A DNA stretch of 44,105 nucleotides. Source: Phenylobacterium sp. GTDB lineage: Bacteria > Pseudomonadota > Alphaproteobacteria > Caulobacterales > Caulobacteraceae. A model generated the notes under the pieces. The model was not told where the DNA came from and ran no database searches. It saw only the letters and a program-made list of their open reading frames with translations. The position numbers and the translations under genes were made by a program. Shown here in pieces: positions 22,754-42,817 of the stretch (positions are counted from its first letter, which is position 1; each line of letters begins with the position of its first letter). The DNA is taken from the NCBI RefSeq assembly GCF_016793285.1, contig NZ_JAEUMO010000065.1:1-44105 (forward strand), read 5' to 3'.

Positions 22754-22771
22754 TATGACTAGAAGGTCACA
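22754..22771. promoter_or_regulatory. TATGAC-N6-GTCATA operator, copy 1
   Basis: TATGAC-TAGAAG-GTCACA has 11 of 12 half-site positions matching the cluster consensus. It overlaps the last codons of the tautomerase gene and lies 8 bp upstream of the DUF4350-like gene, so it is placed to control the unit 22746-19585. The -35/-10 elements are not clear here. Confidence 0.65.
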
Positions 22772-22979
22772 AAGAGTCGTCGTGAAGGCCCGCAGACGGT
22801 GGCCCCAGCGGTGCGCCGCCCACGAACCAGTTCTCCGGCGGCACCTGGGCGACGATCACGCGAATCGAGGACGCCGGGGCGCCCAGCGCCTCGCTCGCCG
22901 CGCGGGTGACCCCGGCCGCGAGTTCGTGCAGCTGCCGCGCCGAGCGGCCGGTCCGAAGCGAGATCTGGATCAGAGGCAT
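22767..22979 (-). CDS. 4-oxalocrotonate tautomerase family protein
   Basis: This 70-aa protein belongs to the tautomerase superfamily. The catalytic proline follows the initiator methionine (MPLIQISL) and becomes the N-terminus after processing. GRSARQLHELAAGVTRAASEALG is the family's first helix, and VIVAQVPPENWFVGG fits the second strand and the hexamer interface. Members convert enol to keto forms or handle related alpha-keto acids. It starts 5 bp after the enolase-family gene and so is in its operon, where it could tautomerise the enol produced by dehydration. Length and spacing are normal. Confidence 0.85.
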   Translation of the reverse strand: MPLIQISLRTGRSARQLHELAAGVTRAASEALGAPASSIRVIVAQVPPENWFVGGAPLGPPSAGLHDDSL

Positions 22980-22984
22980 GGCGC

Positions 22985-24181
22985 TCAAGCCGCCTTGGGC
23001 ACGTAGTCGCCGATGTAGCGCGTCTGGCCCCGTCCGAAGATCACGTCGCAGTAGTTGCCGTCCGGCATGCTGAAGGGGTCGACGCGAAGCTCTCGCACGA
23101 GATCTTCGTCGAGTGTGATCCCGAGGCCGGGTCGGTCGCCCAGTTCGAGCATGCCGTCGCGGATCGGCAGCGGGCCGACCAACTCCTCGATGAAGCGGTT
23201 GCCGGTCTGGTCGACCTCGCAGGTCAGGCCATTCGGCGAGGCGGCGACGACGTGGGCGTTGGCCACCACGGCGACGGCGTCGCACCAGGTGTGCGGCGCC
23301 AGCAGCGCGCCGTGCGCGGCGGCCATGCGGCCCACCTCCATGACCTCGGTGATCCCGCCTGCCCGGCTGGCGTCGGCCTGGGCGATGTCGATGGCGCCTG
23401 CGCGCAGCAGTTCGCGAAAGCCGTGGAGGCCGAACTCGTTCTCTCCCGTGGCCAGCCGCACGCCGTAGGGCTTCAGGCGCTCGCGCAGCGCCACGTAGCT
23501 GTCCAGGTCATCGGGCCCGAACGGCTCCTCGAACCAGAAGGCGTTCACCTCGGCCAGCACAGGCGCCAGGTCGAGGGCGCGCTCGACCGTGAAGCGCTGA
23601 GTGCCGTCGATCATCAGGTCGTGGTCCGGGCCCATGGCGGCGCGCGCCGCGCGCATGGCGGCCACATCGTAGTCGTAGGTCCATCCCACCCGCATCTTGA
23701 CGCGCCGGAAGCCACGCGCCAGCGCGCGGCGCACGCCGTCCGCGACCGCCTCGGGGCTCGAGTAGAGGTTGCCGGAAGCGTAGGCCGGCGCGCGCCCCTC
23801 GCGGCCGCCCAGCAGCTTCCAGACGGGCTGGCCCAGGCGCTTGCCGTTCAGGTCCCACAGCGCAGTGTCGATCCCGCTGATCGCGGCCAGCGCGCCGCCC
23901 TTGCGGCCGTACCAGCGGCTGACGCCGTTGAGCCGGTCGGCCAGCCGGCCCACGTCGTCCGGCGCGAGCCCGATCAGGAACGGCGCCATGTGGTCGACCG
24001 AGGCCTGCACGACCCCGGGATGGGCGTAGGCGGAGCCGATGCCTTCCAGGCCGTCGTCGGTGCGCATGCGCACCAGGCTCGCGAAGCGTCCGTGGACCGG
24101 ACCGGCGGGCGTGCGGAATGTCTTGGCCATGTCGTACTCGAAGCGCAGGTGGACGCATTCGACTTCGGCGATACGGCTCAT
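22985..24181 (-). CDS. Enolase-superfamily dehydratase (mandelate racemase-like)
   Basis: This 398-aa member of the mandelate racemase/muconate lactonising enzyme family abstracts a proton alpha to a carboxylate. It has the KxR-type motif VKMRVGW, metal ligands Asp (MIDGTQRF), Glu (WFEEPF) and Glu (ATGENEF), Asp in QADASRAGG, and His in APHTW. The Lys-x-Arg variant differs from the Lys-x-Lys of the two other enolase enzymes here, so it is a different subgroup with another substrate or stereochemistry. The start is ATG 24181 with GGAGG 8 bp upstream; a longer open frame to 24226 has no such site. It is the first gene of a two-gene unit with the tautomerase, behind operator copy 2. Sugar-acid dehydration is likely but unproven. 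Confidence 0.88.
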   Translation of the reverse strand: MSRIAEVECVHLRFEYDMAKTFRTPAGPVHGRFASLVRMRTDDGLEGIGSAYAHPGVVQASVDHMAPFLIGLAPDDVGRLADRLNGVSRWYGRKGGALAAISGIDTALWDLNGKRLGQPVWKLLGGREGRAPAYASGNLYSSPEAVADGVRRALARGFRRVKMRVGWTYDYDVAAMRAARAAMGPDHDLMIDGTQRFTVERALDLAPVLAEVNAFWFEEPFGPDDLDSYVALRERLKPYGVRLATGENEFGLHGFRELLRAGAIDIAQADASRAGGITEVMEVGRMAAAHGALLAPHTWCDAVAVVANAHVVAASPNGLTCEVDQTGNRFIEELVGPLPIRDGMLELGDRPGLGITLDEDLVRELRVDPFSMPDGNYCDVIFGRGQTRYIGDYVPKAA

Positions 24182-24228
24182 GTGAGGTCCTCCGGCGCGG
24201 CCCGGCGGCCCGCACAACCTGATCAAGA

Positions 24229-24246
24229 CGTGACCCGTGAGTCATA
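24229..24246. promoter_or_regulatory. TATGAC-N6-GTCATA operator, copy 2
   Basis: CGTGAC-CCGTGA-GTCATA has 10 of 12 half-site positions matching consensus, 47 bp upstream of the enolase-family start. On the minus strand a TTGACT lies 3 bp before the palindrome and could serve as -35, but no good -10 is seen. The remaining gap 24247-24387 to the aminotransferase 3' end shows nothing else. Confidence 0.7.
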
Positions 24247-24387: not shown

Positions 24388-25719
24388 CTAGGCGGCCGTT
24401 TGTCCCGCGAACGCGGCGAGCGCGCGGCCGCAGCGGTCGAGAGTCTCCTCGATGTCGGCGTCGGTCATGGCGGCCGAGCCGATCATCATTCCGCGGGTGG
24501 CCATCAGCACGCCCTCGCTCAGGAAGCTCCGGTGGAGCGACTGCATCCGCTGGAGATAGTCAGGGCCCGACCGGGTGTAGAACTCGCGATAGTCGCGCGC
24601 CGGCTCGGCGAAGAACTGCAGACTCGTCATCGAGGCGAGACCGTTCGCCCGCATGACGAGGCCCTCTCGGCGGAACTGCGCCGTCAGCCCGCTTCGCAGT
24701 CGATCCCCCTGGCGTTCGAGCCGCTGGAACACCTCCGGCGTGAGGTGCTTCAACGCCGCGATGCCCGCCGCCATCGAGACGGGATTGGCCGTGAAGGTCC
24801 CGCTGTGGCTCATGCGCAGGGGGCCGGCCAGGTTGTCGAACACCGCCATGGCCTCGCGCGTCCCGCCCACCGCGCCGATCGGGAAGCCGCCGCCGATGAT
24901 CTTGCCCATGACGGTCAGGTCGGGCGTGACCCCGGCGCGGCCCTGGGCGCCGTGGTAGCCTGCGCGGTTGCAGAACACCTCGTCGAAGATCAGCACGACG
25001 CCGCGGCGCCGGCAGAAGGCCTTCAGCGCGTCCAGATAGGCGCGGTCGGCCGGGGAGAACCCCAGCCGCGCCGGATAGGGGTCGATCACCACCGCGGCGA
25101 GGTCGGCGGCGCTCTCTTCGAGCAGCGCCTCGGTCGTCGGCCAGTCGTTGAACGGATAGACGACCACCTGATCCGTCAGCGACCTCGGCGTCCCGACGCC
25201 CAGCGGCGGCGCGGCAGGCCGATCCGCCGGCCCCCAGTTCGCCGGCGTCGGCAGGAAGCTCGCCTCCATCAGGTCGTACTGGCCGTGATAGCCGCCCTCG
25301 GCCTTGGCGACCTTGCTGCGGCCGGTAAGGGCGCGCGCGGCCTTGATCGCCACCATCATCGCCTCGGTGCCGGAGTTCGTGAACCGGACCTGGTCGACCC
25401 CCGGCATGCGCTCGACGATCATCTCGGAGAGCTCGATCTCGGACTCGTCCGGGAGGATGCAGCAGATCGTCCGCTCGATCTGGGCGCGCACCGCCTCCAG
25501 GATCGGGGCGAAGGCGTAGCCGTGGATCTGGGTCGAGAAGTTGTTGATCCAGTCGATGTAGACGTTGCCGTCGACGTCCGTCAGCCGGCACCCCTCGCCG
25601 CGGTCGGCGTAAACGATGTACGGGGCGAACGTGATCATGTGTCGGGTGTTGGCCCCGGGCTGCACGCGCCGGGCGCGCTCGAAGAGCTGCGCTGATCTGG
25701 ACTGGGGATCGGGGAACAC
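24388..25719 (-). CDS. Class III aminotransferase, glutamate-semialdehyde-aminomutase/beta-amino-acid type
   Basis: This 443-aa PLP enzyme has NSGTEA (115-120) for phosphate binding, Asp246 in LIFDEVF for the pyridine ring, and Lys273 in MGKIIGGGFPIGA for the Schiff base. The sequence (for example QPGANTRH and DGNVYIDW) is of the subgroup containing glutamate-1-semialdehyde aminomutase and the beta-phenylalanine and other beta-amino-acid aminotransferases. A heme role is unlikely in this catabolic operon; beta-amino acid to beta-keto acid fits the nearby BKACE. The start is GTG 25719, where the TAG of the upstream SMP-30 gene is part of its TAGGAG ribosome site. It shares the promoter at 26714-26742. 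The exact substrate is open. Confidence 0.88.
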   Translation of the reverse strand: MFPDPQSRSAQLFERARRVQPGANTRHMITFAPYIVYADRGEGCRLTDVDGNVYIDWINNFSTQIHGYAFAPILEAVRAQIERTICCILPDESEIELSEMIVERMPGVDQVRFTNSGTEAMMVAIKAARALTGRSKVAKAEGGYHGQYDLMEASFLPTPANWGPADRPAAPPLGVGTPRSLTDQVVVYPFNDWPTTEALLEESAADLAAVVIDPYPARLGFSPADRAYLDALKAFCRRRGVVLIFDEVFCNRAGYHGAQGRAGVTPDLTVMGKIIGGGFPIGAVGGTREAMAVFDNLAGPLRMSHSGTFTANPVSMAAGIAALKHLTPEVFQRLERQGDRLRSGLTAQFRREGLVMRANGLASMTSLQFFAEPARDYREFYTRSGPDYLQRMQSLHRSFLSEGVLMATRGMMIGSAAMTDADIEETLDRCGRALAAFAGQTAA

Positions 25720-25729
25720 GAGCGGTCTC

Positions 25730-26692
25730 CTACGAGGCGGCGGCCGCCGCCGCGGGCCGGTTGAGGAAGTTGAGAGGCTGGCCGGGTCGCGGCCACTGGA
25801 ACGCCACCAGGCGTCCGGTCGACGAGAGCGTGACGAACGCCGTGCGCAGGTCATCGCCGCCGAACGCGATGTTGGTCGCGTAGTAGTCGTCGAAGCCCAC
25901 GAAGCGGCGCGACGCCCCGTCGGGCGAGATCTCCCAGATCCCGCAGTTGTCGAACGACGCGACGCAGATGTTGCCGGCGGCGTCCAACGCCAGCGAATCA
26001 AGCAGGTTGTTGTCGGGCAGCCCCGCCACGAGACGCCCCCCGTTGGGCGACGGCCAAGGCTGAGCCGCGATCCGGCCCGGCGCGACGAGGTCGAACGCCC
26101 AGATGCGGCGCGTCAGCGTTTCGGCGACGAACAGCGTGCGCTCGTCCGCGGACAGTCCGACCCCATTGGCCGATACCAGGCCCGTGACCGCCTCGACGAC
26201 GCCCGAGCCGTCCGGCTCTGCGTAGAATACGCTGCCCATCCCCATCTGGCGGGGCCTGCGCTTGGTATGGTCGGTGAAGTAGAAGCCGCCGCGGCTGTCG
26301 AACACGAGGTCGTTCGGCGATTGAAGCTCCAGGTCGCCGCAGCGCTCGTACAGGCGCTCGACACGGCCCGAGGCCAGATGGACGCGCTCGATCCAGCCGG
26401 GCCGGTCGGCCTGTCCGGTCGGCCGCCGCCAGCCGTTGGCCTCGGTCGTGTACAGCCAGCCGCCGCTGTTGCAGACGTAGCACCACCCGTCCGGGCCCAG
26501 GGCCGCGCCGTTGGGACCGCCGTCCAGTTCTGCCACGACCTCGACCGTCCCGTCCGGCCAGACGCGCGACAACGCAGGACCTGCAATCTCGACCACCAGC
26601 ACCGAGCCGTCCGGCAGCGCCACCGGCCCCTCGGGGAACCGCAGCGCGTCCGTGACGACGCGCAGGTCCGCAGGTTCGTCGCGACCACCCAT
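25730..26692 (-). CDS. SMP-30/gluconolactonase-like lactonase
   Basis: This 320-aa six-bladed propeller of the SMP-30/gluconolactonase/LRE family hydrolyses lactones, often sugar lactones. The family metal and substrate residues are visible: Glu21 in RFPEGPV, Asn127 in QSPNDLVFD, Asn176 in SANGVG and Asp232 in NLLDSLAL. The start ATG 26692 has GGGAGG 6 bp upstream and lies about 15 nt after the expected start of transcription. It is the first gene of a two-gene unit with the aminotransferase. It probably opens a lactone produced or imported by this pathway. An alanine-rich C-terminus is unremarkable. Confidence 0.9.
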   Translation of the reverse strand: MGGRDEPADLRVVTDALRFPEGPVALPDGSVLVVEIAGPALSRVWPDGTVEVVAELDGGPNGAALGPDGWCYVCNSGGWLYTTEANGWRRPTGQADRPGWIERVHLASGRVERLYERCGDLELQSPNDLVFDSRGGFYFTDHTKRRPRQMGMGSVFYAEPDGSGVVEAVTGLVSANGVGLSADERTLFVAETLTRRIWAFDLVAPGRIAAQPWPSPNGGRLVAGLPDNNLLDSLALDAAGNICVASFDNCGIWEISPDGASRRFVGFDDYYATNIAFGGDDLRTAFVTLSSTGRLVAFQWPRPGQPLNFLNRPAAAAAAS

Positions 26693-26713
26693 CGGCGCCT
26701 CCCTTACATCCGC

Positions 26714-26742
26714 ACATTATGACCCATGAGTCATATAAGCAA
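26714..26742 (-). promoter_or_regulatory. Promoter with TATGAC-N6-GTCATA operator, copy 3
   Basis: The palindrome TATGAC-CCATGA-GTCATA at 26718-26735 matches consensus in both halves. On the minus strand a -35 TTGCTT (26737-26742) and a -10 TAATGT (26714-26719) are separated by 17 bp, and the palindrome fills the spacer. The -10 begins inside the final TA of the palindrome. A repressor bound here would block polymerase. Confidence 0.8.
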
Positions 26743-26792: not shown

Positions 26793-27515
26793 CTAGGTTT
26801 CGAAGAGCTGGCGCAGCGGGCTGCCGGGGCTGAGTTCTTCCAGCGGCGGATTGCGGCCGTACAGGGCGCGGAAGTTGAGCAGCGCGTGCAGTTCGACGAG
26901 CACCTCGAAGCTCGCCGTCTCGTTGAGGCCCGGCCCGGGCTGGACGCCGTAGCGCTCGAACAGGCTCTGGTCCAGCATGCCCCCCGCGGTCCGCATCACC
27001 CAGCGTTGCAGCGTCGGATCCCTGGAAGGATTGTGCTTCTCCCAACCGGCCATGGCGCGGTCGACGATCCGCCCGTTCCGGCCGTGCCAGAGTTCGCGCA
27101 TGATCTCGTCGGCGGCGCCCATCTGCACGATGCAGCGCAGCACGCCCGCATTCGCCTCGAACGTCTTCTCGTACCAGGCGATCCACCTGCGGCTGTTGGT
27201 GAACTGGCTGTCGCGGCTGGAGAGCCGCGGGTAGGTCTGGAACTCGAAGGCGACATAGCGTCGGCCCAGTTCGCGCAGGAACTCGTCCTTCGTCTTGAAG
27301 TAGATGTAGAACGTGCCCTTGGCGACGCCGGCCTCCTGCGAGACCTGCTCGACCATCATCTCGCGGTAGTCGGTCGAATCGAGCAACCGCGCCCCCGCCG
27401 CCATCAGCTTCAGGCGAGAGCGCTCGCCGCTGCGCGTCTTCTTGATCTCCTGGGCCGCGGCCTCGAGGTAGGTCGCGTAGCGGATCACCCCCAGGCTGGT
27501 CGAATCGTCGGTCAA
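26793..27515 (-). CDS. TetR-family regulator 1
   Basis: This 240-aa regulator has a TetR helix-turn-helix at about 33-80, with RLKLMAAGARLLDS, VEQVSQEAGVAKGTFYIYF and KTKDEFLREL. The C-terminal ligand domain is shared with regulator 2 (WY...F.AN.G..R, then D.SLF.RYGV, then ELHALLNFRALYGRNPP). A roughly 25-residue N-terminal extension precedes the DNA-binding domain. It is divergent from the enolase operon at 27681, with operator copy 4 in the shared gap, so it is a good candidate for binding the repeated palindrome and sensing the pathway substrate. ATG 27515 is used; no strong alternative is seen. Confidence 0.93.
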   Translation of the reverse strand: MTDDSTSLGVIRYATYLEAAAQEIKKTRSGERSRLKLMAAGARLLDSTDYREMMVEQVSQEAGVAKGTFYIYFKTKDEFLRELGRRYVAFEFQTYPRLSSRDSQFTNSRRWIAWYEKTFEANAGVLRCIVQMGAADEIMRELWHGRNGRIVDRAMAGWEKHNPSRDPTLQRWVMRTAGGMLDQSLFERYGVQPGPGLNETASFEVLVELHALLNFRALYGRNPPLEELSPGSPLRQLFET

Positions 27516-27626: not shown

Positions 27627-27655
27627 TTGAATATATGACTCATGGGTCATATTAA
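27627..27655 (+). promoter_or_regulatory. Promoter with TATGAC-N6-GTCATA operator, copy 4
   Basis: TATGAC-TCATGG-GTCATA at 27634-27651 is a full match in both half-sites. A -35 TTGAAT (27627-27632) and a -10 TATTAA (27650-27655) are separated by 17 bp, in the same register as copies 3 and 6. Transcription would begin near 27662, about 19 nt before the ATG at 27681. The site also lies upstream of the divergent TetR gene. Confidence 0.85.
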
Positions 27656-27680: not shown

Positions 27681-28814
27681 ATGCGGATCGACACCATCGA
27701 AACCTTCGTGGCCGGACACTGGCTCTTCGTGGCGGTGACGACCGATACGGGCGTCACCGGGGTCGGCGAGTCGACGTACTTCACCCATCCCCTCGCAGCG
27801 CGGGCTGTCTTGGATGACCTCGAGGCGGACCTCATCGGGGCCGACGCCTTCCGGCCCGAGTTCCATTTCAACCGCCTGTTCAAGCACCACTGCCTGCGGG
27901 ACAGCGCGCTGATGGGCGCCCTCAGCGCGATCGACCAGGCGCTCTGGGACATCAAGGGCAAGGCGCTGGGCGTGCCCGTCTACGAACTTCTCGGCGGGCG
28001 GGTTCGCGACAAGGTCCGCGCCATCCTTCTGATCGAGGCCACGTCGGAGGACGAGATGATCCGCAAGGCGGTGGAAGCGCGCGCCGAGGGTTTCACCGCC
28101 ATCAAGATCAAGCCGTTCCTGGGGGACTGGGCGACGCGCACCACGGTCGGCCTGCTGGGCGGGGTCGTGGCTTCCGTCGGGCGGGTGCGAGAGGCCATCG
28201 GCTGGGACATGGACATGGCCGTGGAGATCCATCGCAATCTCACCCCCGACCTGGCCGAGGTGTTCGCCGCCGATGTGCGACCGCTGCGGCCCTACTTCCT
28301 CGAGGACCCGATCCTGCCGTTCAGCCTGGAGAGCAACGGCCACGCCGCCGCGCGCATGGGCGGGGTGGTCGCGCTGGCCGAACGCAACACCAACATCTGG
28401 GAGTTCCGCGAGTTCTCGGACCGCCACGCGGTCTCGATCCTGCGTCCCGACGTGGGTCTGGCCGGCGGCTTCACCCAGGTCCGAAAGATCGCGGCCATCG
28501 CCGAGAGCCGGCATCAACGGATCGTCCCGCACAACTTCACCAGCCCGGTCGTGACCGCCTGCCATATCCAGCTCGCCGCCTGCACCACCAACTGGGACGT
28601 GCAGGGCTACGTGCGTGAAGCGCGGGAGCCGTGGAACCGGGTGGTCAAACAGATCAACCGGCTTGAGGAGGGCTTCCTGGCCATTCCCGACACGCCGGGC
28701 ATCGGCGTCGAACTCGACGTCGACTACCTGCGGCAGGCGACCTACGAACCGTTCGGCAACAAGTTCGCCCATGGCGCGGCCCGCGCCATGGACGGCGCGG
28801 TCCGGCACCAGTAG
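27681..28814 (+). CDS. Enolase-superfamily dehydratase (galactonate dehydratase-like)
   Basis: This 377-aa enzyme resembles the galactonate/mannonate dehydratase branch. The Lys-x-Lys motif is in AIKIKPF, the first metal ligand is in AVEIHRN (Glu where Asp is more usual), then Glu in FLEDPI and Glu in ALAERNTN. The acid/base pair is Asp in RPDVGLAGG and His in VPHNF. It dehydrates an aldonic-type acid to a 2-keto-3-deoxy acid by family analogy. The start ATG 27681 follows AGGAG by 4 bp; the frame is open upstream but crosses the promoter. It is the first gene of a three-gene plus-strand operon. Glu at the first ligand position merits checking. Confidence 0.88.
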   Translation: MRIDTIETFVAGHWLFVAVTTDTGVTGVGESTYFTHPLAARAVLDDLEADLIGADAFRPEFHFNRLFKHHCLRDSALMGALSAIDQALWDIKGKALGVPVYELLGGRVRDKVRAILLIEATSEDEMIRKAVEARAEGFTAIKIKPFLGDWATRTTVGLLGGVVASVGRVREAIGWDMDMAVEIHRNLTPDLAEVFAADVRPLRPYFLEDPILPFSLESNGHAAARMGGVVALAERNTNIWEFREFSDRHAVSILRPDVGLAGGFTQVRKIAAIAESRHQRIVPHNFTSPVVTACHIQLAACTTNWDVQGYVREAREPWNRVVKQINRLEEGFLAIPDTPGIGVELDVDYLRQATYEPFGNKFAHGAARAMDGAVRHQ

Positions 28815-28819: not shown

Positions 28820-29605
28820 ATGGTCGCAGACACCGAAAGCGTCCCGGCCGCCCTCGGCCTTCTGGCCGAAGGCTTCCGCGGCGCCCGCGCCCTGATCGTC
28901 GGCGGCGCCGGCGGCATCGGCGCCGAGACGACCATACAGTTGCGCGCGCTGGGCGCGCGCGTCGTGATCGCCTCACGCCGCGGGCCCGAGCCCGCGGCGG
29001 TCCGCCCGCCGGCCGCCGACGGCGAACTGGCCGCGATCGGCGTCGACCTCACCCGGCCCGAGTCGATCCGCGCGCTGGCCGCGTGGGTCGAGCGCGAGCT
29101 GGGCGGCCTGGACATCCTGGTCAACACCGCGGGCGTGACCCGCACGGTGCCGCTGCGGGCGATCGAACAGCTCGACGACGCCACGATCGACGAGGTCATG
29201 GCCTCCAACGCGGCCGGCGTGCTGCGGATCATCCGCGACCTGACGCCGGCCCTGCGCCGCGGACAGGCGCCCTGCGTGGTGAACGTCTCGTCGGTCGCCG
29301 CGCGCACCGGGGTCGGCAGCAACGTGGCCTATGTGGGCGCCAAGGCGGCGATGGACGCCATGACGGTCGCGCTGGCCAAGGCGCTCGCCCCGGAGATCCG
29401 TCTGGTCAACGTGGCCCCCAGCGCGCTCGACACCGATTTCGCCAAGGGCCGCGGCCCCGAGTTCATCGCCCGCACCATCGCTGCGACGCCCCTCGGGCGA
29501 TTGGCCACGCCGCGCGAGGTCGCCAACGCCGTGCTGGCCGGCGCGCGCCTCCTGACCATGACCACCGGCAGCACGATCTACGTGGACGGCGGCCGCCACC
29601 TCTGA
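28820..29605 (+). CDS. Short-chain dehydrogenase/reductase (SDR)
   Basis: This 261-aa classical SDR has cofactor loop GGAGGIG (28-34), NTAG near 102, catalytic serine in NVSSVAAR, Tyr171 and Lys175 in YVGAK, and the C-terminal TGSTIYVDGGRHL of the FabG-like group. It starts 5 bp after the enolase-family stop and is followed 21 bp later by the BKACE gene. It probably oxidises a beta- or alpha-hydroxy acid to the keto acid that BKACE then cleaves. That sequence of steps is inferred from order only. It is cytosolic and of normal length. Confidence 0.9.
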   Translation: MVADTESVPAALGLLAEGFRGARALIVGGAGGIGAETTIQLRALGARVVIASRRGPEPAAVRPPAADGELAAIGVDLTRPESIRALAAWVERELGGLDILVNTAGVTRTVPLRAIEQLDDATIDEVMASNAAGVLRIIRDLTPALRRGQAPCVVNVSSVAARTGVGSNVAYVGAKAAMDAMTVALAKALAPEIRLVNVAPSALDTDFAKGRGPEFIARTIAATPLGRLATPREVANAVLAGARLLTMTTGSTIYVDGGRHL

Positions 29606-34165: not shown

Positions 34166-36127
34166 TCAAACGGCTCCCGCGGCAGCCGCCGGCCGGTCCA
34201 CGTTTTCGATCACGATCGGCGGCAGCACGTCGGCGGGCCTGAAGCCGAACAGCCGCGCATAGAACGCCAGTTCGGCCTTCAGGCAGGCCAGGTTGGTGTC
34301 CGCGCGCCGGAAGCCGTGCCCCTCGCCTTCGAACAGCATGTACATGACGGGCACGCCGCGCTTGCGCAGGCTCTCGAGGATCAGCTCGGACTGGTTCTTG
34401 GGCGTGATCCTGTCCCGTTCGCCCTGGAACATGGCCAGAGGCGCCGTGATCCGGTCGGCGCTGTGGAGCGGCGAACGCTCCCGATAGAGCGCCTCCGACG
34501 TGTCGCGCGGGCCGACGAGGTAGTCCGCGTACCGCGACTCGAACTTGTGGGTCTGGCTCGCGAAGTAGGCCACGTCGCTGATGCCGAAATACGAAGCGCC
34601 AGCGTGGAAGGTGTCTGCGAAGGCCAGCGCCGCGAAGGTGTTGTAGCCGCCGGCGCTCCAGCCACGGACCGCCAGGCGCTCCGGATCGACCAGACCCTCG
34701 GCCACCAGGTGGCGCGCCGCGGCCACATGGTCCTCGACGTCCACCACGCCCCAGCCCCCGCGCAGGAGATGCCGGAAGTCGCGGCCGTAGCCGGTGCTGC
34801 CGGCGTAGTTGACGTCGAAGACCGCGAAGCCGCGGCTGGTCCAGAACTGGATGCCCGGGTTGAAGCAGGTGTTGGTGCAGCCTGTGGGCCCGCCGTGGCT
34901 GACGACGAGCAGCGGCGGTCGTTCGTCCTCGGGTCCGCGACAATCGGCGTTGGTCGGCGGATAGAAGAAGCCGAAGCCCGTCCGGCCCTTTGCGCTCGGA
35001 AAGTGGATGTGCTGCGCCCGCGAGATCGCGCCCGCCATCGGCTCGGCCGACATCACCTGGCGCAGGATCGTGTGCTCGCCGGTCTCCAGCTCGATCCGGA
35101 CGATGGCGGCCGGGATGGTCGACGAGGAGGCCAGGGCGTAGGCCACGCCGTCGCGCGCCTCCAGCCGGGCGAAGTAGGTGAACGGCAGCTCGAGGGTCGA
35201 CAGCTCGCCCGTCGGCAGGTGCAGTCGCCCCAGCCGGTTCATGCCCTCCTCGGTGTAGACGCAGAGCAGGTTGTCGTCGTCGAGCACGCGGCAGTCGCTG
35301 GTCCCCATCTGCCAGAGGGGCCGGGCGAAATCGCGTTCCAGGTCGCAGAGCGGCTCGATCTCGCCGCCCCGCCAGCGGCAGGGCCGCCACCATCCCGAGC
35401 GGTCGGTCATGAAGATCAGGTCGCCCGAGGGTGTGAAGCGTGGATCGCAGGCCACCTCGGCCTCTTCGGCGACGACCGTCTCCACGGCGGCGAGGCTCCC
35501 AGCCGCGTCGAGCTGCGCGACCCGCAGCGCGGTGACGTCCCACGGCACGTTCGGGTGGTTCCAGGAGACCCAGGCCAGCCGACCGGCGTCGTGGCTGAGC
35601 ACCGGCCAGGCGTAGAAGTCGTCGCCGGCCACCAGCACGGTCCCGAAGGTGTCGCCGCGCACATCGATCGCCACGATCGTGCTCTTCGGCTCGCCGGCGT
35701 CCTGGAACTCTTCGCGGATGCAGACGATGCGCCCGCGCCGCGCGTCGAGGACCGGCGCGCCATACCGATAAGGCCCTTCGGCCGTGATCGGTTCGGGCGC
35801 CGAACCAGGGCGATGCCGATACCAGCGCTGGTCCTCGTTGATGAAGAAGAACTCGCCGTCCCGCACGAGGAAGGCGCTGCCGCCGTACTCGTAGATCGTG
35901 GTGCGCAGGTTGAACCCGTCCGGCGTGATCGTCGTGGCCGCGCCCGGCGCGACGCGTTCGACGACGCTGCGCCCGCCCTCCTCCGGCCGGCGGATCAGCG
36001 CGTAGACCGCCCCGTCGCGATCCACCTCGAGCTGGCCGGTCCAGTAGACGGGAAAGGCCGACGCGGTCGACACCAGCTCGGGTGTCCACGGTGACGGCCA
36101 GGCGCCGTAGGAAACTTCATGAACCAT
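34166..36127 (-). CDS. S9-family prolyl-oligopeptidase-like peptidase
   Basis: This 653-aa cytosolic peptidase has an N-terminal beta-propeller (about 1-390, repeating blades such as SHDAGRLAWVSWNHPN) and a C-terminal alpha/beta hydrolase. The triad is Ser491 in RGWSAGGYN, Asp in FQGERDRITP and His in GEGHGFR. This layout matches acylaminoacyl-peptidase and dipeptidyl-peptidase-like S9C enzymes, which clip blocked or short peptides. The start ATG 36127 has CAGGAG 10 bp upstream; the frame extends to 36196 but through the end of the transporter gene, which it overlaps by 11 bp. It lies between the transporter and the serine hydrolase, suggesting import followed by cleavage. Confidence 0.92.
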   Translation of the reverse strand: MVHEVSYGAWPSPWTPELVSTASAFPVYWTGQLEVDRDGAVYALIRRPEEGGRSVVERVAPGAATTITPDGFNLRTTIYEYGGSAFLVRDGEFFFINEDQRWYRHRPGSAPEPITAEGPYRYGAPVLDARRGRIVCIREEFQDAGEPKSTIVAIDVRGDTFGTVLVAGDDFYAWPVLSHDAGRLAWVSWNHPNVPWDVTALRVAQLDAAGSLAAVETVVAEEAEVACDPRFTPSGDLIFMTDRSGWWRPCRWRGGEIEPLCDLERDFARPLWQMGTSDCRVLDDDNLLCVYTEEGMNRLGRLHLPTGELSTLELPFTYFARLEARDGVAYALASSSTIPAAIVRIELETGEHTILRQVMSAEPMAGAISRAQHIHFPSAKGRTGFGFFYPPTNADCRGPEDERPPLLVVSHGGPTGCTNTCFNPGIQFWTSRGFAVFDVNYAGSTGYGRDFRHLLRGGWGVVDVEDHVAAARHLVAEGLVDPERLAVRGWSAGGYNTFAALAFADTFHAGASYFGISDVAYFASQTHKFESRYADYLVGPRDTSEALYRERSPLHSADRITAPLAMFQGERDRITPKNQSELILESLRKRGVPVMYMLFEGEGHGFRRADTNLACLKAELAFYARLFGFRPADVLPPIVIENVDRPAAAAGAV

Positions 36128-37532
36128 GCGGGGACGCTCCTGACACCAGGGACATTTCGCTGGCCGCCCGGCGCTCCAGCCGGCGACGGATGACACGTTG
36201 CCGGTCGCGGTCCAGCGGGAACAGCCACAGGATCACGCCGGCGGCCGTAAACAGGATCAGCGGCGCGCCCGTATGCACCAGCGCCAGTCCGTTCAGGCTG
36301 GCGCGCGAATGGATGGCGGCCCTGGCGTCGAACTCCATCAGGCTCAGCGCCAGGAACGCCGCGCCCCCGCCCGCCGCCAGGGTGGCCTTCAGCACGAACT
36401 GCTGGATCGCGTAGTACGAGCCCGCGCGGTTCGCGCGGGTGCGCAGCGTGTCGTAGTCGATGCAGTCGGCGAGCACCGCCATCTGCGGCACCTGCGACGC
36501 GGCGTTCGCGAAGCTCGCGATGGTCGCGAGCGCCAACAGCCACGGGAAGCCGGCCTGGCCTGGGGGTACGAAGACGCGCAGGGTGAGCAGCAGCCCGAAG
36601 CTGGCGATCCCCAACGCCCAGATATGTTTGCGCTCGTATGTCTGCGACAGGCGCGTCCACAGCGGGATCGACACCATCTGCGCGATGGCGGCCGTGGCGT
36701 AGATCACCGGGAACTTGTCGGCCATGCCCAGGTAGGCGTCGATGAAGATGTACGACGTCCCATAGTAGACGCCGTAGGCCAGGCCGGTCAGGGCGTAGGC
36801 CCCGGCGAAGGTCCAGAAGGGCCGGTTGATGCGCAACGACCGGGCCACGCCGCGCAGGGTCACCGCCCCGGACTCGTCGGCGTTCGTCCCGATGGGCGCG
36901 AAGATCACCGCCGCGCCGATACAGAGCGGAATCAGCGCGAGGATCAGCCAGCCCAGCAGCTTCAGCATCGGCGGCGTGATTTCGGCGGTCGCGAACAGCG
37001 GCAGCAGCGGCGACGACAGCAGCAGCGGCAGGCCCATGAACAGCAGCAGGCCCACCACGCTGGCGAAGGTGAGAACGCCCGAGATCATCGAGCGTTCGCG
37101 GTAGGCGCGCGACAGCTCGCTGCCCCAGGCCGAGTGCGGCACCGCCAGCATGCTGTAGGCGGTGTAGAAGATCAGCAGGACGGGAAGCAGATAGCTGCCC
37201 GAGGCGGCGGCCGGGGGATTGAACAGCAGGTAGACGGCGCCGGTCGCCAGCACGCCGCCGCCGATGATCCAGGGCTTGCGCCGGCCCAGCGGGCCCCGGG
37301 TGCGGTCCGAGAGGTAGCCGACGGCCGGATCGGCGACGGCGTCGTAGAGCCGCGCCGCCATCAGGATGATGCCGATCGTCGCCAGGTCGATGGCGGTGTT
37401 CTTCGCATAGAACGCCGGAATGAGGGCGTTCAGCGGTATCATCATCATGCTGCTGATGATGGAGACGAGGCTCCAGGCGAGCAGATGCTTCGCCTGGAGC
37501 CCGCCCGTGTGAGCGATGTGGGGTTTCGGCAT
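36117..37532 (-). CDS. MFS transporter, GPH (glycoside-pentoside-hexuronide) type
   Basis: This 471-aa inner-membrane transporter has 12 predicted helices. GPH-family marks are ARLYDAVADPAVGYLSDRTRG with GPLGRRKPWI in the first half, and MAVLADCIDYDTLRTR in the second. GPH carriers are cation symporters of sugars and glycosides; some relatives serve peptides or drugs. ATG 37532 is preferred over the adjacent GTG 37535 because the GAGGAG site is then at normal distance. It follows the TonB receptor by 63 bp and precedes the S9 peptidase, forming outer- and inner-membrane uptake steps in one operon. Confidence 0.92.
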   Translation of the reverse strand: MPKPHIAHTGGLQAKHLLAWSLVSIISSMMMIPLNALIPAFYAKNTAIDLATIGIILMAARLYDAVADPAVGYLSDRTRGPLGRRKPWIIGGGVLATGAVYLLFNPPAAASGSYLLPVLLIFYTAYSMLAVPHSAWGSELSRAYRERSMISGVLTFASVVGLLLFMGLPLLLSSPLLPLFATAEITPPMLKLLGWLILALIPLCIGAAVIFAPIGTNADESGAVTLRGVARSLRINRPFWTFAGAYALTGLAYGVYYGTSYIFIDAYLGMADKFPVIYATAAIAQMVSIPLWTRLSQTYERKHIWALGIASFGLLLTLRVFVPPGQAGFPWLLALATIASFANAASQVPQMAVLADCIDYDTLRTRANRAGSYYAIQQFVLKATLAAGGGAAFLALSLMEFDARAAIHSRASLNGLALVHTGAPLILFTAAGVILWLFPLDRDRQRVIRRRLERRAASEMSLVSGASPHGS

Positions 37533-37595: not shown

Positions 37596-39725
37596 CTAGT
37601 ACCGAAGGTTCACGGCGACCCCATAGGTCCGTGGAGCGCCGTAGGTGCCGACGCGGTCCGTGCCCAATGTGTCGGCATAGTTCAGGTAGTCCTTGTCGGC
37701 GAGGTTGCGACCCCACAGGTAGACACCCCAGCGTTCGTCCTGCCGCGCGATGCCGATGCGGGCGTTCAGCAGGCTGTACGAGGGCGTCAGCGACGCCGGC
37801 GTATTGGCCGGGTTGCCGTACTGGTTGCCGCGGTACTGCCACTCGCCGCGCACCATGAAGTCGAGGTCGTCCCCGATCGGCCGGGTGTACTGGACACGCA
37901 GATTCCCGTTCCACTTGGGCGCGAAGGTCAGGCGGTTGCCGCTGTTGTTGACGGTCGCGGATGCCCGGTAGTTCTTGTACTCGCTGTCGAGGTAGCCGAC
38001 GCCGCCCGCGATCTCCAGGCCGTCCACCGGCACCAGGGTGAAGTCGAGTTCGGCGCCCTTGATCACCGCCTTCGCCGCACTGTCGACGTTGAAGCCCACC
38101 CCGTTGGCGAGGCCGCCGAAGGTGGTCACCGCGAGGTTCCGGTAGTCCATGTAGAACACGGCGACGTTCGTCCGCGCCCGGCCCTCGAGGAAGTCGGCCT
38201 TGAAGCCGGCCTCGTAGTTGTCGACCCGCTCGGCCTTGTAGGGCTCCGCCCCGCGGAAGCTGAGGCCGGCGTTCCAGCCGCCGCTCTTGTTGCCCCGCGA
38301 CCACTTGGCGTAGGCCATCACGTCGCCCGAGGGCTTGTACTGGATGCCGACCATCGGCGAGACGTCGTGGTCCAGGATCTTGTCCGTGATCGGCCCGAAC
38401 GCCGGGAAGGCGCCGCCGAAGAAGCCGCCGTTCTGGTTGAACCGGAAGAACTCCAGCCGCTTGGTCTCGTAGCCGTAGCGGAGGCCGACATTCAGCGTCC
38501 ACTGGTCGTTGAGGTGGTAGTTGGCGTTGCCGTAGGCGGCGTAGCTGTTGGTGAACACCGTGCGGTTGGCGCCCGTGAGCCCGGGGAAGAACGGGCTGGC
38601 CACGCCGTTCTGCACGAAGCCCCCGCTCTGGTCTGAATAGACGTCGAGGTAGAACAGGCCGAACACGTAGTCGAGCCGCCCGCCGCTCGGCGAGGTCAGC
38701 CGCACCTCGTTGCTGAACTGATGATTGTGATCGAGGATCCGCGTGCGCTGGTCGTCCAGCGGACCGGTGTCCTCGTCGACCTGGAAGTCCACATACGACT
38801 TGCGATAGGCCGTGATCGTCGTGAGCGTGTAGTCGCCGAAGGTGGTGTCCGTGGTCAGATGCACGCCCTGCAGCGTGCGGTCGTTCACGTTCGCTCGATC
38901 GAACGACACCGTGCGCGGACCGGGAATGAAGGTCAGCGGATTGGCGCCGGAGATGATCTCGCGCATGACCCGCGTGGGGGTCTCGGTCATGTAGTCGTAG
39001 CTCAGGTTCGCCTCGAAGTTCTCGAACGGCCTGGCGCGCAGTTGCAGCCGGCCGCCCCACCGGTCTTCGCTGTCGACGCGGGTGTTATTGAACACGTTGC
39101 GCGTGAAGCCGTCGCGCCGGAAGCGCGTGATCGAGACGCGGCTGTAGAGCTTGTCGGCGATCAGCGGCATGTCGACGATGCCGACGGCGCGGAGCGCGCT
39201 GTGGTTGCCCGCCTCGACGTCGACGGAGGCGCCGAACGTGTCCTGCGGCCGCTTGGTCACCATGTTCACGGCGCCGGCGATGGTGTTCTTGCCGAACAGC
39301 GTCCCCTGCGGACCGCGCAGCACCTCGATCCGCTCGAGGCCCTGGATGTCGGGGTTCCAGTCCGTTGGCCGGGCCAGGAACACGCCGTCGACGTAGAAGC
39401 CGATCGAGCCGTCCTCGCCCGGGCTGCGGGCCGTCGAGGTGATGCCCCGCAGCGACACGTCGGGCCGCCGGTTGAAGTCGTTGCTGGAGTAGTTGAAGTT
39501 CGGCACCGAGTACTGCAGGTCGCGCAGGGACACCGCGCCTCGACGCTGCAGCTCCTGAGCCGTGAACGCGGTCACCGAGACCGGCACCGCTTGCAGGTTC
39601 TCCTCCCGCTTCGTCGCGGTGACGATCACCTCTTCGACCGCGGTCTGGGCGCTGGCCGCGCCGGCCCCCACGCAGCCGGCGGCGGCGACCGCCAACGCAA
39701 TCCATGACGTACTGCAACGACGCAT
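37596..39725 (-). CDS. TonB-dependent outer-membrane receptor
   Basis: This 709-aa receptor has a signal peptide ending near GAASAQ, a TonB box-like VEEVIVTATKREENLQ, a plug (about 45-160) with YVDGVFLARP and IEVLRGPQGTLFGKNTIAGAVN, and a beta-barrel ending LRY. The VTATKREE type, often called FecA/CirA-like, is abundant in sphingomonads and caulobacters. ATG 39725 is chosen because it begins the signal peptide and follows GAGGGGG; the frame is open to 39791 through the operator. It heads the operon TonB-MFS-S9-serine hydrolase-TetR and has the degenerate operator upstream. The substrate is unknown but is probably that of the cluster. Confidence 0.93.
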   Translation of the reverse strand: MRRCSTSWIALAVAAAGCVGAGAASAQTAVEEVIVTATKREENLQAVPVSVTAFTAQELQRRGAVSLRDLQYSVPNFNYSSNDFNRRPDVSLRGITSTARSPGEDGSIGFYVDGVFLARPTDWNPDIQGLERIEVLRGPQGTLFGKNTIAGAVNMVTKRPQDTFGASVDVEAGNHSALRAVGIVDMPLIADKLYSRVSITRFRRDGFTRNVFNNTRVDSEDRWGGRLQLRARPFENFEANLSYDYMTETPTRVMREIISGANPLTFIPGPRTVSFDRANVNDRTLQGVHLTTDTTFGDYTLTTITAYRKSYVDFQVDEDTGPLDDQRTRILDHNHQFSNEVRLTSPSGGRLDYVFGLFYLDVYSDQSGGFVQNGVASPFFPGLTGANRTVFTNSYAAYGNANYHLNDQWTLNVGLRYGYETKRLEFFRFNQNGGFFGGAFPAFGPITDKILDHDVSPMVGIQYKPSGDVMAYAKWSRGNKSGGWNAGLSFRGAEPYKAERVDNYEAGFKADFLEGRARTNVAVFYMDYRNLAVTTFGGLANGVGFNVDSAAKAVIKGAELDFTLVPVDGLEIAGGVGYLDSEYKNYRASATVNNSGNRLTFAPKWNGNLRVQYTRPIGDDLDFMVRGEWQYRGNQYGNPANTPASLTPSYSLLNARIGIARQDERWGVYLWGRNLADKDYLNYADTLGTDRVGTYGAPRTYGVAVNLRY

Positions 39726-39774: not shown

Positions 39775-39792
39775 TATGACATTCTTATCATT
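39775..39792. promoter_or_regulatory. Degenerate TATGAC-N6-GTCATA operator, copy 7
   Basis: TATGAC-ATTCTT-ATCATT has one perfect half-site and one with 4 of 6 matches, 49 bp upstream of the TonB-receptor start. On the minus strand the perfect half reads GTCATA and flows into TATAGC, a plausible -10 in the same register as copies 3, 4 and 6. No good -35 is seen, so the receptor promoter may be weaker or need help. Confidence 0.5.
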
Positions 39793-39959
39793 AAATTGAA
39801 ACAGCTATTTCAGGATCATCTGCGAGGGTTTGATTTCTGCTATCATATTGTTTCTTCGTCATTTTCTTGTCGATCCGATTTCTGATACCCCGCGCGAACA
39901 AGATCTACCTCATCTAATATGACTGACTAGTTCGGTTATTTGTTCGGTCGGCCGCCGGG
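39793..39959. other. AT-rich intergenic stretch
   Basis: With 39726-39792 this forms a 234-bp gap. It is clearly more AT-rich than anything else here, with poly-T runs, a lone TATGAC half-site at 39918-39923 and a tandem TTCGG (GTTCGG-TTATTT-GTTCGG, about 39929-39947). I see no gene and no textbook terminator. It probably combines the 3' region of the acyl-CoA dehydrogenase operon with upstream regulatory DNA of the TonB receptor. Confidence 0.4.
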
Positions 39960-41126
39960 TCAGTAGGCGCGTGGGAGGGCGAGGTCGTGCTCGGCGACGT
40001 AGTTGAGGACCATTTCCTGGGAGATCGGCGCGAGGCGCATCACCCGCGCTTCGCGCCAGTAGCGTTCGACGTGGTACTCGCGCGCGTAGCCGAAGCCGCC
40101 GTGGGTCTGCACCGCGGCGTCCGCCGCCGCATACCCCGCTTCGGCCGCGAGCCATTTGGCGCGGTTCGCCTGCGACCCGCAGTCGAGGCCGCGATCCAGG
40201 CGCCATGACGCCTCGCGGATCGCGAGCTCCGCCGCATCGAGGCGCATCCGCGCCTCGGCGAGCGGGAACGCCACCGCCTGATTCTGGCCGACCGGCCGAC
40301 CGAAGACCACCCGCTCGCGCGCATAGTCGGTCGCCCGGCGCAGGGCCGCGCAGCCGATGCCCAGGGCCTCGGCCGCGACGAGGATGCGCTCCGCGTTCAG
40401 ACCGGCCAGCAGGTAGCGGAACCCCGCGCCCTCATCCCCGACACGGTCCTCCTCGCTGACGAACAGGCCGTCATAGGCCACCTCGCAACTCGCCACCGCA
40501 TTGCGCCCAGCCTTGGGGATCGGCCGGATGTCCACCTCGGCCCGGCGCAGTTCCGCGAAGAGCAGGGTGAGGCCATCGGTCCGCCGCGCGCACGCTTCGA
40601 CCGGGGTGGTGCGCACGAGCAGCAGGACCCGCTCCGACTCCAGGGCTTTCGAGGTCCACACCTTCCGGCCCCGCACCCGGTATCCGCCATCGACCTTGCT
40701 GGCGAACGTGGCGATCCGGGTCGTCTCGCTGCCCGCGTCGGGCTCGGTGACGCCGAAGGCGACATGCAGGTCGCCGGTGGCGACGCGCGGCAGGAATCGC
40801 CGGCGCAGCGACTCGGAGCCGAACCGCACGATGGGGTGCATCCCGAAGATCGACATGTGGAGGGCGCTGGCGCCGTTCATCGCCGCGCCAGACGCCGCCA
40901 CCTCTTCCAGCAGGATGGACGCCTCGGTGATCCCCTGGCCCGCGCCGCCGTAGGTTTCCGGCGTCGCGATACCGAGCCAGCCGCCTTCGGCCATCGCCTG
41001 GTAGAAGGCCCACGGGAAGCGGTGCTGCTCGTCGCATTCCGACCAGTAGCTGTCGGGGAAGGCGCGACAGACCTGGCGCACCCCCTCGCGGATCAGCGCG
41101 TGCGCCTCGGGCCGGGTGAAGTCCAT
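39960..41126 (-). CDS. Acyl-CoA dehydrogenase family protein
   Basis: This 388-aa flavoprotein has the family layout: helical N-terminus, FAD/acyl binding TEPDAGSETTRI and KVWTSKA in the middle domain, RVVFGRPVGQNQAV, and QTHGGFGYAREYHVERYWREARV at the C-terminal domain. The catalytic glutamate usually found a few residues later, in an EGT motif, is replaced here by RLAPISQEM, as in a known subgroup. It may therefore use another base or act on an unusual acyl-CoA. It follows the ThDP enzyme by 4 bp, in one operon behind operator copy 6, with a CoA-transferase gene upstream of that unit. It probably oxidises the CoA ester made by the pathway. Confidence 0.9.
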   Translation of the reverse strand: MDFTRPEAHALIREGVRQVCRAFPDSYWSECDEQHRFPWAFYQAMAEGGWLGIATPETYGGAGQGITEASILLEEVAASGAAMNGASALHMSIFGMHPIVRFGSESLRRRFLPRVATGDLHVAFGVTEPDAGSETTRIATFASKVDGGYRVRGRKVWTSKALESERVLLLVRTTPVEACARRTDGLTLLFAELRRAEVDIRPIPKAGRNAVASCEVAYDGLFVSEEDRVGDEGAGFRYLLAGLNAERILVAAEALGIGCAALRRATDYARERVVFGRPVGQNQAVAFPLAEARMRLDAAELAIREASWRLDRGLDCGSQANRAKWLAAEAGYAAADAAVQTHGGFGYAREYHVERYWREARVMRLAPISQEMVLNYVAEHDLALPRAY

Positions 41127-41130
41127 CCGA

Positions 41131-42768
41131 CTAGGCCCCCACCCGCTGTGGCGGCGGCGACATCACCGCCTCGATCAGGCGCGGTCCCCGGCGCCCCATG
41201 GCGGACGCGAACGCGGCGTCGAACGCCTCGGCGGTCTCGCAGCGCGTCGCCGGCACGCCCAGGCTCTCGGCCAGGGTCGTCCAGGCGATGGTGGGCCGCC
41301 CGAGGTCCAGCAGCCGCCGCGCGGCGGGGCCCGGCCGACCCGAGCCGGTCCGCCCGAACTCGACGTTGAGGATCTTGTAGGCGCCGTTGGCGAACACCAC
41401 GACGGTGACGTCGAGTTGCTCGCGCGCGATCGTCCAGAGGCCCTGCACCGTATACATCGCCGCGCCGTCGCCGTTCAGCGAGACGACCTTCCGGTCAGGA
41501 CAGGCCACGGCCGCGCCGATGGCGAGCGGGATCCCCTGCCCGATGGCGCCTCCCGTCAGCATCAGCCAGTCGTGGGGCGCTGCCGACGCGGTCTGCAGGA
41601 AGATGGGCATCCCCGCAGTGACCGCGTCGTCCGAGATGATGGCGTCGTGCGGCAGGTGGCGCGCGATCGCCGCGCCCGCGGACTGCGGAAACAGGTCGCC
41701 CTGTGGCGCAGGCGGCGCAGCCGCGCACGCCACGGGACCGGCCGGCGGCGCCTCGAGCAGGTCGGCAAGCATCTCGAGCGCGACATCGCCGGCCTCGTCC
41801 ACGCCGGCCAGCATCTCGATGCGGCAGCCCTCCGGCCACAGCGCGCTGGGCTTGTCGGGATAGGCGAAGAAGGCGGCGGGCGCCTGCGCCTCCACCAGGA
41901 CCAGCGTGTCGAGGTCCGCCAGTTCGTCGTGCGCCACCTCGCCGAAGTATGCCAGCCGCGCCGGCGCGAAGATCCCGGCTCCACGCCGCTGGCGCGCGAC
42001 GAAGGTCTCCGTCCAGACGCGCACGCCCGCCGCCGCCAGGCGCGCGGCGGCCGCCAGGCCGCGGGCCCGACAAGCGCGACCGCCGATCAGCAGGCCGGCG
42101 GCCTTTGCGCCCCGCAAGCCGGCCGCGACCTCGGCGATGCGCTCTGCATCCGGCGCCACGGGGGACGATGGGGCGAGCGCACGGCCGCGCACCGCCGTCG
42201 CGTTCCAGGCGCTGTCGGCGGGCAGAATCAGTGTGGCGCAGCCTCCGGGAGGGCCGAGACTCGCGGTGACCGCTTCGGCCGCCAGCGGCCCCACCCGGTC
42301 GGCATGGTCGGCGCTGCGGACCCAGGCCGAGTTCGGCGCTGCCCAGCCGGCTATGTCGCTCGAAAGCGGCGTATCGTAGGCCCGATGATAGGTGGCATGG
42401 TCGCCCACGACGTTCACCACCGGCGTCCGCGCCCGGCGTGCGTTGTGCAGGTTCGCGCCGCCGTTGGCGTAGCCCGCTCCCAGGTGGAGCAGGGTCGCCG
42501 CCGGGCGGTCCGCCATTCTGCCGTAGCCGTCCGCCGCTCCCGTGGCGACGCCTTCGAACAGGCACAGCACCGCCGACATCCGCGGCTCGCGGTCCAGCGC
42601 CGCGACGAACTGCATCTCGCTGGTCCCGGGATTGGCGAAGCAGGCCGTCACGCCGTTGTCGGCCAGGGTGCGGATGAGCGCGTCGGCCCCGTTGGACGCG
42701 GCGCGGGCTTCGCTCGGCGCCGCGGCCGTCGTCTCCCCCCGCGCCGCTGTGCTCAGGTCGTTGGACAT
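41131..42768 (-). CDS. ThDP-dependent enzyme (acetolactate synthase/benzoylformate decarboxylase-like)
   Basis: This 545-aa enzyme has the three-domain ThDP layout. The N-terminal pyrimidine-binding domain has NPGTSEMQF and catalytic Glu72 in FEGVATGAADGYGRM, the central domain starts around 215, and the pyrophosphate domain carries NGDGAAMYTVQG...FANGAYKIL (the GDG-x-N magnesium site). Such enzymes decarboxylate 2-keto acids or form carboligation products. The start ATG 42768 has GGAGAGGG just upstream, and a leader of about 15 nt is predicted. It is the first gene of the unit with the acyl-CoA dehydrogenase. Which 2-keto acid it uses cannot be read from sequence; the closest group is annotated only broadly. 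Confidence 0.9.
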   Translation of the reverse strand: MSNDLSTAARGETTAAAPSEARAASNGADALIRTLADNGVTACFANPGTSEMQFVAALDREPRMSAVLCLFEGVATGAADGYGRMADRPAATLLHLGAGYANGGANLHNARRARTPVVNVVGDHATYHRAYDTPLSSDIAGWAAPNSAWVRSADHADRVGPLAAEAVTASLGPPGGCATLILPADSAWNATAVRGRALAPSSPVAPDAERIAEVAAGLRGAKAAGLLIGGRACRARGLAAAARLAAAGVRVWTETFVARQRRGAGIFAPARLAYFGEVAHDELADLDTLVLVEAQAPAAFFAYPDKPSALWPEGCRIEMLAGVDEAGDVALEMLADLLEAPPAGPVACAAAPPAPQGDLFPQSAGAAIARHLPHDAIISDDAVTAGMPIFLQTASAAPHDWLMLTGGAIGQGIPLAIGAAVACPDRKVVSLNGDGAAMYTVQGLWTIAREQLDVTVVVFANGAYKILNVEFGRTGSGRPGPAARRLLDLGRPTIAWTTLAESLGVPATRCETAEAFDAAFASAMGRRGPRLIEAVMSPPPQRVGA

Positions 42769-42788
42769 ATCTCGCCCTCTCCGCGCGC

Positions 42789-42817
42789 TTTATATGACCC
42801 ATGGGTCATGTTTTCAA
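42789..42817 (-). promoter_or_regulatory. Promoter with TATGAC-N6-GTCATA operator, copy 6
   Basis: TATGAC-CCATGG-GTCATG at 42793-42810 has 11 of 12 matches. On the minus strand a near-consensus -35 TTGAAA (42812-42817) and -10 TATAAA (42789-42794) are 17 bp apart, with the palindrome filling the spacer. This is the best sigma-70-like promoter of the cluster. It drives the ThDP enzyme and acyl-CoA dehydrogenase genes. Confidence 0.85.

Follow-up and report, generated by a model that had tools for sequence, protein, structure and literature searches.

Do the scattered transcription units of a catabolic gene cluster answer to one regulator, and if so, to which? We addressed this question in a stretch of Phenylobacterium sp. 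DNA (the window), which makes up a complete contig of 44,105 bp in a draft genome of 4.49 Mb and in which an 18-bp palindrome recurs between the genes of such a cluster. A first reading of the letters alone (the sequence-only reading) had listed seven copies of TATGAC-N6-GTCATA and taken them to define one local regulon. That these copies are confined to the cluster and conserved in relatives supports this view, which we refine by naming the most likely binder: with a probability of roughly 0.88, the palindrome serves as operator for TetR1, a TetR-family regulator encoded within the cluster (26793–27515, minus strand; PF00440, E 2.3e-10), which would block the cluster promoters from there. Comparison established that the sites exist and where they lie, that they are confined to the cluster and that they are linked to TetR1 across different genera and phyla; from these findings we infer binding, repression rather than activation, and an inducer.

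An 18-bp palindrome at the heads of transcription units

All seven coordinates proposed at the outset carry the words given for them, but the strict pattern is exact at only two (26718 and 27634), with one mismatch at 22754 and 42793 and two at 24229, 31035 and 39775. Allowing up to three mismatches, the window holds 11 matches against a shuffle mean of 2.98, and none of 100 shuffles reached 11. The improved consensus of the palindrome is TATGACY-N4-RGTCATA. To score the sites, we used a weight matrix built from 26 training sites of four other genomes, the window and its near-copy G313 being excluded; as the training sites were chosen by having at most one mismatch to the strict pattern, the matrix is independent of the window in sequence and not in pattern. 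The six best-scoring window sites under this held-out matrix are six of the seven listed, all intergenic, with scores of 19.1–30.4, compared with a top score of 16.5 in 60 Markov-shuffled windows, which held 0.52 sites per window at a score of 8 or more. These six thus score far above what chance would produce, whereas the seventh, at 39775, does not.

The strong sites sit where the sequence-only reading had placed them, between genes and at the heads of units: all six have an intergenic midpoint (by our own gene calls, 8.8% of the window is intergenic), their centers lie 16–56 bp from the nearest called start codon, and the top score inside any window gene is 6.9. Four of them face units on the minus strand. 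TATGACTAGAAGGTCACA (22754–22771, score 21.7) heads the DUF4350-like, M55 D-aminopeptidase and alpha/beta hydrolase genes; CGTGACCCGTGAGTCATA (24229–24246, score 19.1) heads enolase-superfamily enzyme 1 and a tautomerase; TATGACCCATGAGTCATA (26718–26735, score 30.4) heads an SMP-30 lactonase and a class-III aminotransferase; and TATGACCCATGGGTCATG (42793–42810, score 28.7) heads a thiamine diphosphate (ThDP)-dependent enzyme and an acyl-CoA dehydrogenase. The other two lie in divergent intervals, TATGACTCATGGGTCATA (27634–27651, score 30.4) between TetR1 and the unit of enolase-superfamily enzyme 2, a short-chain dehydrogenase (SDR) and a beta-keto acid cleavage enzyme (BKACE), and CATGACTTATGAGTCATG (31035–31052, score 23.2) at the head of a DUF2817 gene and of the divergent gene at 30510–30908. 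The further claim that every unit is marked thus holds for six unit heads, but not throughout, since the unit of TonB receptor, symporter and peptidases is preceded by a marginal site only, TATGACATTCTTATCATT (39775–39792, minus strand, score 8.1), and the head of the last gene (42863–44065) falls at the contig end. The 39775 block is identical in G313 although the flanks differ. A second weak operator-like word, TATGACTGACTAGTTCGG, occurs farther upstream of the TonB receptor at 39918–39935, and G313 (L052) has a similar one at the corresponding position.

Restriction to the cluster and conservation in relatives

Scanning the whole 4.49-Mb genome for TATGACY-N4-RGTCATA with at most two mismatches returned seven matches, six of them in the cluster, while the reversed-pattern control returned two. 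The strict pattern, at two mismatches, gave 26 matches (seven of them in-cluster) and its reversed control 15, so that the 19 matches of the strict pattern outside the cluster are near background; it is too loose, and we therefore rest the restriction claim on the improved consensus. The excess of 26 over only 15, together with the chance-level score at 39775, is what could be said for a purely compositional origin, in which AT-rich palindromic words happen to fall in intergenic DNA. Given that six held-out scores exceed the maximum of 60 shuffles and that sites recur at the heads of orthologous units, we give this explanation next to no weight.

When one mismatch is allowed, TATGACCNNNNGGTCATA has 32 matches in 101 genomes of the genus, 14 of them in the four genomes that bear TetR1. 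Three of these four carry at least two sites within 20 kb, compared with none of the 97 genomes without a TetR1 match, in which 18 matches stand against 19 for the control and no pair lies within 20 kb. With two mismatches, the matches to TATGACCNNNNGGTCATA are mostly in-cluster in three relatives: 11 of 15 in G769 (control 4), 9 of 12 in G326 (control 4) and 5 of 6 in G147 (control 3).

We compared nine loci, the window included, which had been gathered by TetR1 similarity. G313, L023 and G768 are one genome of the window's own genus, whose TetR1 is about 90% identical; being a near-copy of the window, it was left out of the promoter-geometry count and of the leave-one-out analysis as well as of matrix training. 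L025, G320 and G770 are likewise one genome. The operator stands before orthologous operons in Phenylobacterium records, in G769 (a Caulobacter record) and in G147 (another family of the order), and the orthologous clusters hold 10 strong sites in G326, 11 in G769 and 5 in G147, mostly at unit heads, as predicted for a conserved regulon. In a leave-one-out analysis of five loci, 31 of 33 sites were intergenic at their midpoint, compared with 3.8 expected from the intergenic fraction; the other two lie at a called start (G326, 28406) and at a gene 3′ end (G147, 23328). Two sites of G313 (36731 and 38139, joined coordinates) fall inside genes by our own calls, and two sites of G769 are more than 400 bp from any called start.

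The correspondence extends to individual units. The position orthologous to 27634 is filled in G313, G326, G769 and G147, and the unit of enolase 2, SDR and BKACE is site-headed in G326, G769 and G147. The SMP-30/aminotransferase, DUF2817 and DUF4350-like/M55 units are site-headed in both G326 and G769, and the last of these also in G313 (in G769 its site is 318 bp from the called start). Paired sites stand at the head of the orthologous ThDP unit of G326 and of a ThDP-containing unit of G769. The 24229 site is kept in G313, and the G326 orthologue of enolase 1 (80%) has a site 218 bp upstream. TonB receptors of G769 (65% identity) and G326 (38%) are preceded by strong sites, and in both genomes the orthologue of the window's last gene, a CoA-transferase, is located after the aminotransferase in a unit with a site at its head.

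More distant loci carry other payloads, and there too the operator core accompanies TetR1. In G320, a single site separates TetR1 from a unit encoding a CAAX-type protease, an S12-type serine hydrolase and an enolase. In the Gemmatimonadetes loci L026–L028, we counted 10 exact TGACC-N4-GGTCA cores in 44 kb against 0.03 expected, nine of them within 150 bp of TetR1; each locus (L026, L028 and L061, the latter at the L027 place) has two cores 23 bp apart just upstream of TetR1, suggesting cooperative autoregulation, and one core 22–24 bp past its 3′ end. The tenth core (L027) is 2.9 kb from TetR1, within a called gene.

Two side observations concern what else the sites precede: an AMP-binding ligase has a site at its head in G769, and in G147 operators head a hydrolase resembling acyl-CoA:6-aminopenicillanate acyltransferase (AAT; L019:7726–8853) and a transketolase/PDH-E1-like protein (L020:8962–11334), widening the payload.

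TetR1 as the likely reader of the palindrome

Besides TetR1, the cluster encodes a second TetR-family protein, TetR2 (32189–32893, minus strand; PF00440, E 7e-07). TetR1 proteins of the other eight loci are 50–91% identical to that of the window, and in six of the seven loci other than the window and G313 TetR1 has an operator-type core no more than 150 bp away, the distance being 922 bp in G147. TetR1 was found in 4 of 101 genomes of the genus (at most 27 candidates scored per genome) and in 2 of 299 in an order-level search, while a class-level search returned no genome beyond the window's own (1 of 385) and a plasmid search no match. TetR2, as a distant paralogue (32% identity) in the same cluster, might read the palindrome alone or with TetR1, and among eight other genomes searched it has close orthologues in G313 (94%) and G769 (71%). 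No TetR2 orthologue was found in G326, G147, G320 and G772, which bear the full operator (10, 5, 1 and 1 strong sites, respectively) and have TetR1 only, nor in G771 and G773, which bear the inner core; G771 has a 28% TetR2 relative on another contig. Because the orthologue is missing in four operator-bearing genomes, we consider TetR1 the likely binder, TetR2 unlikely as sole binder, and any part for TetR2 improbable.

We also considered whether the sites might belong to a regulator already described. RutR of Escherichia coli belongs to the TetR family, and its core, TGACCA-NN-TGGTCA, resembles the inner core TGACC-N4-GGTCA. The RutR palindrome is given as about 16 bp in PMC10891134. The sites differ in their outer TAT/ATA, their degenerate center and the lack of pyrimidine genes nearby; the A expected by RutR at position 8 is present in 11 of 52 half-sites; and the confinement of the sites to one cluster does not fit a RutR box. 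No protein of the seven genomes searched passed the RutR equivalog cut-off, and we rejected RutR as the binder, an assignment we regard as very improbable. AcuR, CurR and ScbR-type regulators, whose models are among the best NCBIfam matches of TetR1, share its DNA-binding domain, but TetR1 scores far below their cut-offs (35.2 bits vs 247 for AcuR).

The position of the sites relative to promoters bears on how TetR1 would act. Sites were oriented to the nearer start codon, divergent sites were counted once, and two sites far from a start (G769, 36326 and 36413) were left out. Ten of the 33 oriented sites have a TTG starting exactly 7 bp upstream of the operator; no other offset has more than three, and the opposite side has none. 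The 27634 operator lies between TTGAAT and TATTAA, predicted promoter elements with a 17-bp spacing. With a TTG at this distance, the operator falls inside the -35/-10 spacer, which suggests repression by blocking RNA polymerase. As the 27634 site is 128 bp before the called start of TetR1, autoregulation is possible. That the palindromes bind an activator, or have a dual role, is suggested by the few sites far from a called start and by the paired sites in G769 (31295/31359 and 36326/36413); however, the commonest single geometry is of the repressor type, and TetR-family proteins are mostly repressors, which makes simple repression much the better account and activation improbable.

According to the repressor model that we favor, a TetR1 dimer would bind TATGACY-N4-RGTCATA within the -35/-10 spacer of the cluster promoters and exclude RNA polymerase. 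A compound of the pathway would then release TetR1, so that six to eight operons would be turned on together, supplying outer- and inner-membrane uptake, hydrolases, a transaminase, BKACE and CoA-linked steps. The cluster genes are thus probably switched on together for one nutrient, and with such shared control it is a fair inference that all of them serve one substrate.

Several points weigh against this reading. The presence of TetR1 in all nine loci is by construction, as these were chosen by TetR1 similarity; independent evidence comes from its surroundings in each locus. The sole candidate for the TonB/symporter/peptidase unit, 39775, scores at chance level. Gemmatimonadetes keep only the inner 14 bp, the full matrix exceeding its threshold at one of three loci. 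At two mismatches, the in-cluster share of TATGACCNNNNGGTCATA matches is 4 of 6 in G313 (control 8), 1 of 4 in G320 (control 8) and 1 of 8 in G772 (control 2), so that restriction is invisible there by count alone; the figures for the other Gemmatimonadetes genomes are 0 of 5 in G771 (control 3) and 0 of 1 in G773 (control 3). In the three genomes that encode TetR2, this protein could bind the sites as well. Finally, 23 of the 33 oriented sites lack a TTG at exactly -7, either because promoters vary or because orientations and start calls are partly wrong; starts came from our own simple gene caller, and both these starts and the direction assigned to divergent sites are predicted.

Local TetR-family repressor regulons of catabolic clusters are a well-known kind, and the present one resembles them in having the regulator inside the cluster, a divergent neighbor, a palindromic promoter operator and several operons per site type. 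It differs in its six strong sites within one cluster and in its operator and gene set, which we did not find in the open-access literature, either among best-matching titles or by exact operator strings. The initial statement that no such regulon had been described therefore stands within that scope, and the system is most likely an undescribed local regulon of TetR1.

Genes of the cluster and the pathway they suggest

The site-headed units encode mainly enzymes. On the minus strand, they comprise the alpha/beta hydrolase (19585–20937; PF01674, E 9.7e-05, just over the cut-off), the M55 D-aminopeptidase (20934–21755; PF04951, E 4.6e-82), the DUF4350-like protein (21781–22746, below the Pfam cut-off), a 4-OT-type tautomerase (22767–22979; PF01361, E 6.8e-17 on a longer frame), enolase-superfamily enzyme 1 (22985–24181; MR_MLE domains), the class-III aminotransferase, a possible beta-amino-acid transaminase (24388–25719), and the SMP-30/gluconolactonase-like protein (25730–26692; PF08450, E 1.7e-41). 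The plus strand carries enolase-superfamily enzyme 2 (27681–28814; MR_MLE domains), for which no solved structure matched at E 1e-60, the SDR (28820–29605; PF13561, E 5.6e-42), BKACE (29627–30508; PF05853, E 9.2e-89) and the DUF2817 protein (31087–32175; PF10994, E 4.1e-61). The short gene at 30510–30908 is racemase-like, with a weak CuyB match, and among the compared loci occurs only in the near relative G313.

The remaining genes, all on the minus strand, are those of the marginally marked unit, namely a serine hydrolase of the beta-lactamase/D-peptidase or S12 type (32973–34163; PF00144, E 4.4e-41; alkaline D-peptidase 4y7p, E 9e-28), an S9 peptidase (34166–36073; PF00326, E 1e-47), a GPH-type symporter (36117–37532; PF13347, E 2.7e-63) and the TonB-dependent receptor (37596–39695; PF00593, E 1.1e-43), followed by the acyl-CoA dehydrogenase (39960–41126; PF00441, E 2.2e-34), the acetolactate-synthase-like ThDP-dependent enzyme (41131–42768; NF005760, 729 bits, cut-off 363) and the family III CoA-transferase (42863–44065; PF02515, E 2.9e-104). 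A separate catabolic cluster at 7595–17162 encodes an SSF transporter, an enolase, an SDR, a DHDPS-like protein, an IclR regulator, an esterase and a TonB receptor; the held-out matrix scan of the window found no strong operator site in it, and it is perhaps under its own IclR.

Judging from its genes, the cluster may serve to take up and hydrolyze a peptide-like compound. BKACE acts on beta-keto acids by family definition, and aminotransferase relatives stand beside TetR1 in seven of nine loci and BKACE relatives in six, both together in five; the sixth BKACE locus, L027, has a 43% aminotransferase relative about 7 kb from TetR1. The best solved match of the window aminotransferase is 6k8h of Sphaerobacter thermophilus (E 2.4e-112), and an Arg of the window protein aligns with Arg36 of 6K8H. 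PMC10589169 describes 6K8H as a transaminase active on beta-amino acids, whose Arg36 might bind the substrate carboxyl group. One may thus tentatively picture, at somewhat under even odds, a compound with a beta-amino-acid unit from which the transaminase would yield a beta-keto acid, to be cleaved by BKACE with acetyl-CoA; a beta-amino-acid-containing peptide would fit the payload best.

Other features point elsewhere. ForI (E 2.7e-85), which also has that Arg, and glutamate-1-semialdehyde aminomutase (E 9e-71) outrank the Variovorax beta-phenylalanine aminotransferase 4ao9 (E 6.2e-69), weakening the beta-amino-acid logic, and the best NCBIfam model of the window aminotransferase is glutamate-1-semialdehyde aminomutase, below its cut-off. 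In addition, an amino-sugar acid would better explain the two enolase-superfamily enzymes, the SMP-30 lactonase and the GPH-type symporter.

By analogy only, the cluster recalls the mlr clusters of microcystin degradation. MlrA is of the Rce1 type, and the operator-headed unit of G320 includes a CAAX-type membrane protease, at most a candidate MlrA. This Rce1-like protein (L057:133–1170), part of a different payload under the same regulator, matched only RCE1 in the PDB, and a plasmid search with it gave 34 records, none covering 80% of the protein. Unlike the mlr clusters, the window yielded no CAAX/Rce1 match among the proteins scanned. The likeness on the window side lies in the serine hydrolase of penicillin-recognizing type, as MlrB is described, and in the possible beta-amino-acid logic.

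A broader proposal, which we put forward as speculative and, taken whole, rather doubtful, is that TetR1 and its operator form a portable module, shared by Caulobacterales and Gemmatimonadetes with varying payloads, that would sense a beta-amino- or beta-keto-acid intermediate. The module would control an undescribed degradation of peptide natural products containing beta-amino acids, probably with D-residues, through TonB uptake, S12-type, S9, M55 and DUF2817 hydrolases, a beta-transaminase and BKACE.

Taken together, these results allow some 13 to 20 genes with loose annotation to be tested as one unit, for which any compound that releases TetR1 from its operator would point at the pathway substrate. 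Across lineages, TetR1 is most often accompanied by an aminotransferase resembling those active on beta-amino acids and by BKACE, a pairing that hints at a beta-amino-acid route, in which BKACE would gain a defined physiological context, and the 18-bp site with TetR1 would be a ready sensor part once the ligand is known.

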